Source of the DNA: Verrucomicrobiia bacterium
GTDB taxonomy: Bacteria; Verrucomicrobiota; Verrucomicrobiia; Verrucomicrobiales; Akkermansiaceae
DNA length: 64,000 bases
Reading direction: 5' to 3'
NCBI GenBank assembly: GCA_030430455.1
Contig: JAUIJB010000002.1
Location: 1 to 64,000, forward strand
In this document: piece by piece, positions 48,877 through 50,820 of the stretch
Layout: every line of letters begins with the position of its first letter
How positions within the stretch are numbered: position 1 is the stretch's first letter
Translations under genes and position numbers: made by a program
Notes under the pieces: model-generated
Database searches by the model: none
What the model was told of the DNA's origin: nothing
The model's input: only the letters and a program-made list of their open reading frames with translations

Positions 48877-49910
48877 GGGACCTGCTTCCAGCCGACCGGC
48901 CGGGGCTGCTGCTGGCGCCGATGCAGGCGGTCACCGACCTGCCCTTCCTGCGGGTGATGGCCCGCCGCGGCGGGGCCGACCTCTACGTCACCGAGTACTT
49001 CCGCGTCCACGGCGACTCGCGGCTCGACCGCTGGATCCTGCGCTCGATCGACGAGAACCCGACCGGTCGACCGATCTTCGCCCAGCTCATCGGCCAGGAT
49101 GTCGCCGCGCTGGTGCGCACGGCGCGCGAACTCGAGCAGCACGCCGTGGCGGGCATCGACCTCAACCTCGGCTGCCCGGCCCCGGTGGTGTGCCGCAAGG
49201 AGGCCGGCGGCGGCCTGCTGCGGAACCTGCCGAAGATCGACCGCATCCTCGGCGAGCTGCGCGCCGCGGTGGCGGGACGCTTCACGGTCAAGACGCGGGT
49301 CGGCTACCACTCGCCCGACGAGTTTCCGGCGCTGCTCGAGGTCTTCGCGCGGCACGCCATCGATGCCCTGACCATCCACGGCCGCACCGTGAAGGAGCGC
49401 TATGCCACGCCGGTGCACCCGCAGCGGGTGCGCGCGGCGGTGGAGGGCCTCGCCTGTCCGGTGATCGCCAACGGCAACGTCGTCGACACCGCCACCGGCG
49501 CTGCCTACCTCGCGGCCACCGGGGCGGCGGGACTGATGATCGGGCGCGGGGCGATCCGCAACCCGTGGCTGTTCGACCAACTGCGCGCGGCCTGGCGCGG
49601 CGCGCCGCTGCCGCGGCCGTCCTGCCGCGAGCTGCTGGCGCACGTGCGCGAGCTCTACGACGAGATCGCCCGCGAGGCGGCCGACTTCGATCCACCCCGG
49701 CACGTCCAGCGGATGAAGAAGACGATGGTCTTCGTGACCCAGGGCTTCGACCCGGCTTTCGAGCACGAGCTGCGCCGCGCCGCCATCCCCGACGAGTTCC
49801 ACGCCATCTGCACCCGCCACCTCGACCACGACGAGCCGATGCCGGCCCTCCCGGGTGCGGACTCCAAGCTGTTCTGCGGCTTCGCGGAGCTCCGGAGTGG
49901 CGTTCTTTGA
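48873..49910 (+). CDS. dus: tRNA-dihydrouridine synthase
   Basis: A 345-aa TIM-barrel flavoenzyme that reduces uridine to dihydrouridine in tRNA. FMN and active-site segments are LLAPMQAVTDLPFLRVMARRG, AQLIGQD and the catalytic loop DLNLGCPAPVVCRKEAGGGL (catalytic Cys in VVCRK). TVKTRVGY, TIHGRTVKERY, VIANGNV and GLMIGRGAIRNPWLF follow. Subfamily (DusA/B/C) is not resolved. The last codons and the TGA stop lie inside a REP copy (49894-49945), so the original C terminus was probably altered by that repeat. Confidence 0.94.
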   Translation: MRDLLPADRPGLLLAPMQAVTDLPFLRVMARRGGADLYVTEYFRVHGDSRLDRWILRSIDENPTGRPIFAQLIGQDVAALVRTARELEQHAVAGIDLNLGCPAPVVCRKEAGGGLLRNLPKIDRILGELRAAVAGRFTVKTRVGYHSPDEFPALLEVFARHAIDALTIHGRTVKERYATPVHPQRVRAAVEGLACPVIANGNVVDTATGAAYLAATGAAGLMIGRGAIRNPWLFDQLRAAWRGAPLPRPSCRELLAHVRELYDEIAREAADFDPPRHVQRMKKTMVFVTQGFDPAFEHELRRAAIPDEFHAICTRHLDHDEPMPALPGADSKLFCGFAELRSGVL

Positions 49911-49945
49911 GCGCCATGGCACGGACCGGCGGCTTGCAGCCGCCG
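49894..49945 (+). repeat. 52-bp REP copy 1 flanking the RAYT
   Basis: This copy begins GGAGTGGCGTTC and ends in the palindrome GGCGGCTTGCAGCCGCC (49929-49944). It is identical over all 52 nt to 50653-50704. It overlaps the 3' end of dus. Confidence 0.95.
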
Positions 49946-49962
49946 CCAGGCCACCATCGACC

Positions 49963-50601
49963 TCACCGGAACCGCCGCGCCTGGTCGCTTTCGCCAAGCA
50001 GGCAGGCTCCCTCCCCGAGCCCCGCCTTCCCCGGGTTCGCCCGAATGTATCTCACGCAGCGGGCAAAGTGATCCCAATCGCGGATCATGCGATCGAAGTA
50101 GCTCTTCTGCCAGAGACTTCCCTGCCGCCCCATTCGTTCGTTGATCCGCTTGGCGGAGTAGGACTTCCAGGTCATCACCAACTTCCCCAACTCGGCGCCG
50201 GGAAGGACATCGACAAGGGCATGGACATGATTCGGCATGATCACCCAGGCATGCAGCGCGGACCTCTGGCCCTCGAAGAACCCGAGGCACTCCGAGACGA
50301 TCGCCGCGTTGGCGGGATCCTTGAGAAGACACCCGCCACTCCCGAGATCGAGCCAGTGTTCCAGCTTGCCGAGGAAACGTCGGAAATACTCCCGCTCGAC
50401 CTCCGCCGGCCACGGCCGGGCTCCCTGCTGGTCGACCCAGGCTTTCCGCTCCTGACAGTGACGACGGAGTTTGTCGGCGGGAATCGAGTCGCCCAAGCGG
50501 AAGGTGATGAAGTAGCTGGTGTTGGCTTGGGACCAGTGGGGAAGACGGTTGTTTGAGAGCTCGATGGGGGCGTCGGGATTGAAGAAGCGGGGAGGGGACA
50601 T
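49963..50601 (-). CDS. REP-associated tyrosine transposase (RAYT, Y1_Tnp domain)
   Basis: A 212-aa single-domain Y1 transposase of the IS200/IS605-related RAYT group, which nicks single-stranded REP hairpins. The HUH motif is His125-Val-His127 in AWVIMPNHVHALVDVLPG. Candidate catalytic tyrosines are Tyr168 in SLWQKSYFDRMIRD and Tyr185 in VRYIRANPGKAGL, both within conserved RAYT blocks. SNNRLPHWSQANTSYFITFRL is the usual N terminus. The start at 50601 is preceded by a perfect Verrucomicrobia-type LexA box and a TTGACA. Identical 52-bp REPs lie on both sides. The gene appears intact. Confidence 0.92.
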   Translation of the reverse strand: MSPPRFFNPDAPIELSNNRLPHWSQANTSYFITFRLGDSIPADKLRRHCQERKAWVDQQGARPWPAEVEREYFRRFLGKLEHWLDLGSGGCLLKDPANAAIVSECLGFFEGQRSALHAWVIMPNHVHALVDVLPGAELGKLVMTWKSYSAKRINERMGRQGSLWQKSYFDRMIRDWDHFARCVRYIRANPGKAGLGEGACLLGESDQARRFR

Positions 50602-50614
50602 GATTCCGGAACAG

Positions 50615-50628
50615 TGTTCATACGAACA
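50615..50628. promoter_or_regulatory. LexA (SOS) box upstream of the RAYT
   Basis: TGTTC-ATAC-GAACA matches exactly the dyad TGTTC-N4-GAACA described for Verrucomicrobia LexA. It lies 13 bp upstream of the RAYT start and between a TTGACA (50639-50634) and the start, where bound LexA would block transcription. Confidence 0.7.
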
Positions 50629-50633
50629 TTGCT

Positions 50634-50639
50634 TGTCAA
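50634..50639 (-). promoter_or_regulatory. Candidate -35 element of the RAYT promoter
   Basis: TTGACA on the minus strand. Seventeen nt downstream the -10 position reads CACTGT, a poor match, and overlaps the LexA box. Confidence 0.35.
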
Positions 50640-50652
50640 GGAGACTTCTCTT

Positions 50653-50704
50653 GGAGTGGCGTTCTTTGAGCGCCATGGCACGGACCGGCGGCTTGCAGCC
50701 GCCG
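50653..50704 (+). repeat. 52-bp REP copy 2 flanking the RAYT
   Basis: Identical to 49894-49945, in the same orientation. It starts 14 bp past the RAYT -35 element. Together the two copies bracket 707 bp that contain only the RAYT and its control region. Confidence 0.95.
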
Positions 50705-50724: not shown

Positions 50725-50775
50725 GGCGCCTGCAAGGCGCCTGTCCGTGCCATGGCGCCTGCAAGGCGCCACTCC
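50725..50775 (-). repeat. Inverted, diverged REP copy (REPIN partner)
   Basis: The reverse complement begins GGAGTGGCGCC and contains CGCCATGGCACGGAC, the same 15-nt core as copies 1 and 2. Its two palindromes read GGCGCCTTGCAGGCGCC instead. With copy 2 it forms an inverted REP pair separated by about 20 nt. Confidence 0.9.
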
Positions 50776-50820
50776 GGCGCCACTCCGGCGCCACTCCGGC
50801 GCCACTCCGGTGCCACTCGG
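50765..50820 (+). repeat. 11-bp tandem repeat GGCGCCACTCC
   Basis: Five consecutive units of GGCGCCACTCC (the last two degenerate: GGTGCC, ACTCGG) extend from the end of the inverted REP toward mlaF. It looks like slippage of the REP tail. Confidence 0.92.

Follow-up and report, generated by a model that had tools for sequence, protein, structure and literature searches.

Introduction

The closest described case of a single-strand HUH transposase controlled by the SOS response is that of the ISCR elements, which are related to IS91. According to the available text of Lallement et al. 2026 (PMC13393415), LexA binds three ISCR transposase promoters in Escherichia coli, ISCR1 and ISCR8 being tightly LexA-regulated, and single-stranded DNA (ssDNA) is argued for ISCR to serve at once as SOS signal and as HUH substrate; the same text names integron integrases among LexA-controlled mobile elements. 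ISDra2 TnpA of Deinococcus radiodurans is triggered by ssDNA, and the available text offers no evidence for irradiation-induced expression of the transposase (PMC2806898). RAYTs (REP-associated tyrosine transposases) are not part of this picture in the literature that we searched: no paper joining a RAYT with LexA or SOS was found in a limited collection, searched partly by title and beginning of the abstract, and neither SOS nor LexA appears in the main texts of the RAYT/REP papers checked for these terms. Each of the three components, namely RAYTs, LexA boxes, and LexA-controlled transposases, has been described before; the literature searched contained no RAYT assigned to the SOS regulon.

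The LexA regulon of Verrucomicrobia was reportedly described by Erill et al. in 2016, with the TGTTC-N4-GAACA box as the LexA motif, and to our knowledge includes no RAYT. That study is cited by PMC7739468 and PMC8565304, the latter of which, in its available text, counts a repair system linked to uracil-DNA glycosylase among the members of the regulon.

Here we describe a RAYT gene with this box in its promoter, located in a 64,000-nucleotide stretch of DNA (hereafter the window) from a Verrucomicrobiia bacterium of the Akkermansiaceae. As in ISCR, as far as the text of PMC13393415 describes it, an HUH single-strand transposase gene has a host LexA box in its promoter; the two differ in that the RAYT is a Y1 and ISCR a Y2 enzyme, and in phylum and LexA motif, and binding and induction have been shown for ISCR, whereas the RAYT operator is predicted from sequence. 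The RAYT resembles ISDra2 in being a Y1 transposase predicted to act after DNA damage, as ISDra2 does, and differs in that ISDra2, in the account of PMC2806898, responds to ssDNA without evidence of transposase induction. The box of the RAYT is also found at two integron integrase genes of this genome, a likeness to SOS-controlled integrases in general; the integrases are, however, tyrosine recombinases, whereas the box-bearing gene described here is a RAYT. Finally, E. coli rayT (TnpAREP, PDB 4ER8) belongs to the same protein family and is likewise flanked by REPs.

Results

The RAYT gene and its REP-like repeats

49963..50601, minus strand: RAYT gene, 212 amino acids, recognized by Y1_Tnp, NF047646, PDB 4ER8, and the HVH and YIRANP motifs
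49894..49945, plus strand: 52-nt REP-like repeat past the RAYT 3' end, 100% identical to 50653-50704
50653..50704, plus strand: 52-nt REP-like repeat upstream of the RAYT promoter, 100% identical to 49894-49945
50725..50775, minus strand: inverted copy of the 52-nt repeat (inverted repeat I2), 80% matching

The gene is read on the minus strand from an ATG at 50601-50599 to a stop codon at 49965-49963. In profile searches, its product matched Pfam Y1_Tnp (PF01797; E 7.5e-11, 42.6 bits, cut-off 23) and exceeded the cut-off of the NCBIfam family NF047646 (87.1 bits, cut-off 80), while the score with the IS200/IS605 TnpA profile NF033573 (34.3 bits) lay below that family's cut-off of 55. It also matched TnpAREP (PDB 4ER8; E 3.8e-4), to which both the HUH motif PNHVH and the catalytic tyrosine motif YIRANP are aligned. 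Both motifs are present in all 12 box-bearing rows (11 at no more than one mismatch from the box, the remaining one at two), and among 79 RAYT rows the HUH motif is found in 79 and the tyrosine motif in 74. The box-bearing homologs L046 (69.3 bits) and L267 (52.6 bits) score under the NF047646 cut-off of 80. A single-sequence structure model was set aside for its mean pLDDT of 47.

The core of the flanking repeat (49923-49945) is found at 15 genomic sites when up to 3 mismatches are allowed, against none for the reversed control, and the gene is thus flanked by multi-copy REP elements, as is characteristic of RAYTs. GGAC, a known alternative REP tag, heads the hairpins at this RAYT, where the GTAG/GTGG tag was not found before the REP hairpin. 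The latter is the tag of the described REPs, which are mostly proteobacterial in the available account (PMC6006769). Tandem 11-base units (GGCGCCACTCC) adjoin the REP-like repeats at 50754-50818 of the window.

Layout of the RAYT promoter

50615..50628, minus strand: LexA-type box, predicted operator; exact match to the box common to all 18 lexA genes in the genus
50634..50639, minus strand: TTGACA, -35-like hexamer recognized by sequence, without a consensus -10
50609..50613, minus strand: third half-site TGTTC recognized by sequence; lexA promoters are arranged alike

The palindromic box TGTTCATACGAACA in the window sequence is an exact TGTTC-N4-GAACA dyad. It lies between the TTGACA hexamer (minus strand, 50639-50634), from which it begins 5 bases downstream, and the RAYT start codon, to which the gap is 13 bases. 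The position of the dyad, its distance of 13 bp from the start, and the TTGACA upstream had all been claimed in an earlier note on this DNA and agree with the coordinates; so does its statement that the window holds no other copy, since the site is the sole exact one and none of 100 dinucleotide shuffles gave any. That note had missed an extra half-site TGTTC (minus strand, 50613-50609), one base past the box. The promoter hence reads TGTTC-N4-GAACA-C-TGTTC, which is the arrangement of 17 of the 18 lexA promoters of the genus. A scan for consensus promoters found no full sigma-70 promoter at the RAYT and no consensus -10 at 16-18 nt from TTGACA.

The box as the LexA motif of the genus

The genome encodes both LexA and RecA (TIGR00498 and TIGR02012, over cut-off) and contains nine exact boxes, of which the other eight precede the following genes, each with the exact box upstream:

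lexA: TIGR00498, over cut-off
recA: TIGR02012, over cut-off
radC: PF04002
radical-SAM repair gene: TIGR03916
ssb: recognized by sequence, without a profile
imuA-like gene: weak match, E 4.8e-4, far under cut-off
integron integrase, L001:119-1492, minus strand: TIGR02249
integron integrase, L006:1122-2606, plus strand: TIGR02249

The TIGR03916 gene fits the uracil-DNA-glycosylase-linked repair member of the Verrucomicrobia LexA regulon, as that member is described in the available text of PMC8565304. Every one of the 18 lexA genes in the genus has the exact box, with its first base 27-30 bases upstream of the predicted start; one spacer base (C in 17, G in the 18th) and then TGTTC follow it. 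The assignment of the motif to Verrucomicrobia LexA rests on the reported description by Erill et al. together with these lexA promoters, read in the present analysis; the earlier identification of the dyad with the LexA motif of the host lineage is borne out by them and by the organism's own recA. Because the box is identical to those before lexA and recA of the genome, and lies between TTGACA and the start codon, it is predicted to be a LexA operator.

How far such a site could arise by chance was judged from several counts. Under a first-order Markov model of the window, the expectation is about 1.05 exact sites per 4.22 Mb, or roughly one per genome, which speaks for a functionless chance match to the LexA motif at this gene; the genome, however, holds nine, against none for the reversed control. 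In the window, matches at up to two mismatches are fewer than expected (5 versus 12.0), and the exact site alone stands out. Over 18 genomes of the genus, there are 3-12 exact boxes per genome (137 in total), and 0-3 for the reversed controls (15 in total); a lone exact site elsewhere in the genus can therefore be chance.

Conservation at the nearest RAYTs

The four nearest RAYTs all belong to the same genus (G017, 59% identity; G013, 57%; G005, 53%; G007, 52%; G and L numbers are our labels for genomes and loci), and each has the dyad beside its start codon, three with one mismatch and one with two:

G017 RAYT: TGTTT-N4-GCACA, 2 mismatches
G013 RAYT: AGTTC-N4-GAACA, 1 mismatch
G005 and G007 RAYTs: CGTTC-N4-GAACA in both, 1 mismatch

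The G013 gene has a predicted TTG start, and its second box arm with the following half-site reads GAACA-C-TGTTT. When the five promoters were registered on the dyad, pairwise identity was 84% in the arms, 52.5% in the loop, and 25-43% in the flanks; random sets of 10 flank columns averaged 30% and reached at most 47% in 2,000 draws. The best-conserved flank stretch contains TTGAC/TTGTC. That the dyad is kept above the conservation of its flanks argues against a chance match.

The dyad could also be read by something other than LexA; for example, folded into a hairpin in the mRNA or in ssDNA, it could hold back translation of the RAYT or serve as a binding site for the enzyme. In favor of this, hairpins are what RAYTs act on, the dyad is placed just upstream of the start codon, and some similar boxes of IS91-type genes lie within a longer dyad. 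Yet identical arms with free loops precede lexA, recA, ssb, and radC, and one-sided changes such as CGTTC-N4-GAACA, which weaken a hairpin, are tolerated at the RAYTs; we consider this explanation very unlikely.

The Dus, ABC, and Mce genes of the window were not found beside the nearest RAYTs in the flanking sequence available, 1.5-3 kb at most and less where a contig ended, and a common neighborhood was accordingly rejected as the cause of box conservation; the G005 and G007 RAYTs have, by eye, one neighbor in common. The same comparison bears on the possibility that the LexA site serves the ABC-transporter gene on the opposite strand, whose plus-strand start (50856) is 227 bases from the box. 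REP-like repeats intervene, however, and at other box-bearing RAYTs the box again stands at the RAYT start with no ABC or Mce gene found in flanks of the same extent, which makes this the least credible of the explanations, at the very edge of plausibility.

With a host LexA box in the promoter, and the box at all four nearest RAYTs (1-2 mismatches), the gene has the sequence features expected of a LexA-regulon member. The earlier note had proposed that the RAYT is apparently under LexA control, and this is upheld in the form of a predicted operator by the four conserved dyads and by the same motif at lexA and recA. It had also held that absence of the box from orthologous RAYTs would refute the proposal: the nearest four keep the dyad, whereas most other RAYTs scanned are without it, as described below.

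Distribution of the box among RAYTs

Among 84 same-genus matches, 54 RAYTs were scanned (excluded were one starting at residue 59 and 29 with E >= 4e-10), and the box was found within one mismatch in 8, at -40 to +20 of the predicted start; the other 46 are without it. Three windows further upstream of the same 54 starts contained no box within one mismatch. TGTTC ranks first among the 1,024 palindromic dyads at RAYT starts (8 occurrences; mean 0.10, next 3), and when spacings of 0-8 were tried, matches appeared with spacing 4 only. RAYTs first sampled from other genera were all without the box at the start (13 of 13 and 23 of 23, 36 in all). Its absence from most other RAYTs scanned marks the box as a trait of some RAYTs and not of RAYTs in general, and this absence is what a chance match would also predict; the conservation at the nearest RAYTs, the top rank of the dyad at RAYT starts, its absence further upstream, and the nine genomic boxes against a control of none and an expectation of about 1.05 leave a chance origin very improbable.

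Two wider searches gave further cases. Among 80 homolog loci from named genome contigs, 62 were scanned (short and C-terminal matches were excluded, partial rows of the L071 type retained), and the box, with at most one mismatch, was present in 3. Two of these, L031 and L032, are the G013 and G005 genes already described (contigs G013:C94 and G005:C330); the third, L046, is new. A pattern search over 386 genomes of the order gave 8 matches against 4 for the reversed control; 6 of the 8 are RAYT starts (G000, G001, G013, G315, G039, and G131) and 2 are not. L046 lies within G116, whose 11 box places are identical to those of G315, so that the two count as one genome. Exact boxes compared with the reversed control number 11 versus 3 in G315, 14 versus 2 in G131, and 3 versus 2 in G039, where the RAYT box has one mismatch; the few exact boxes make the G039 case weaker.

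A quickly built tree of 79 RAYTs, from which L119 was excluded for an internal stop, needs 8 changes to account for the box, or at least 6 by the starred branches; this count of separate origins is inflated by the rows L046, G039, and G131, which were added for carrying the box. The box is kept in the clade of the window RAYT and scattered elsewhere, with loose clustering (4 of 500 label shuffles were as low). The predicted LexA control is thus old within that clade, and there have been repeated gains, or losses, of it.

IS91-type transposases with the same box

In G116/G315, 3 of the 11 exact boxes precede IS91-type transposases, one of which was profiled (Y2_Tnp, Zn_Tnp_IS91). Of 30 IS91 loci from relatives in the order, 15 were scanned, the other 15 starting at residue 31 or later.

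IS91-type loci noted: L270-L280 and L283 (upstream of the transposase); L229, L230, and L231

The exact box lies exactly 20 bases upstream in 12 of the 15; one more has a one-mismatch box at -20, and two have no box within one mismatch. IS91-type transposases are thus, by their predicted boxes, a second HUH family with the same motif. Several of these boxes are embedded in a longer dyad, and part of their conservation may belong to the end of the element.

Discussion

Taken as a whole, the dyad at 50615-50628 is probably a LexA operator, predicted to keep the RAYT silent until DNA damage. In the proposed mechanism, LexA would sit on the box and block RNA polymerase; upon damage, RecA on ssDNA would induce self-cleavage of LexA, and the RAYT would be produced. 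The enzyme, by homology a single-strand HUH/Y1 nuclease, would then meet the hairpin-forming REPs exposed as ssDNA during repair, and the cutting and movement of REPs would thereby be restricted to damaged cells.

A conserved LexA operator would tell under which condition RAYT action is to be looked for, with damage, recA, and lexA as handles on REP movement, and would suggest how an ssDNA nuclease stays quiet in growing cells. RAYTs are described in the available text of PMC8049555 as acting at very low rates and as domesticated, and domestication is also stated in that of PMC8266576, in agreement with the view of them as quiet, domesticated genes taken in the earlier note; both sources give their exact function as unknown. 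If the present reading is true, the LexA finding for ISCR, made with one HUH family in E. coli, would hold for a further HUH family in another phylum as well. We put forward more tentatively that in Verrucomicrobiota SOS may be a general switch for ssDNA transposases, the RAYTs (Y1, repeatedly) and IS91 (Y2) having been brought under LexA control such that enzyme and ssDNA substrate appear together; for the window RAYT this would point to a function in damaged cells and give a first hint, from regulation, of what domesticated RAYTs do.

E. coli rayT was considered as a second SOS-controlled case and rejected, as no LexA box was found within 250 bases of it: the best site has 3 mismatches, whereas the dinB box was picked up in the same scan with 1 mismatch. 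About 2.8 kb and two pseudogenes separate E. coli rayT from the SOS gene dinB (L300, K-12 MG1655 246000-254500).

RAYTs are pictured as single-copy genes in the available text of PMC8049555, against which run the 9-11 RAYT-like matches per genome, of several kinds, in G001, G005, G013, and G017. The genome of the window also has a second, shorter RAYT (L016:1210-1812, G000:C17); TGTTC-N4-GAGCA stands one base ahead of its ATG, and the gene is flanked by REP-like palindromes at either end.
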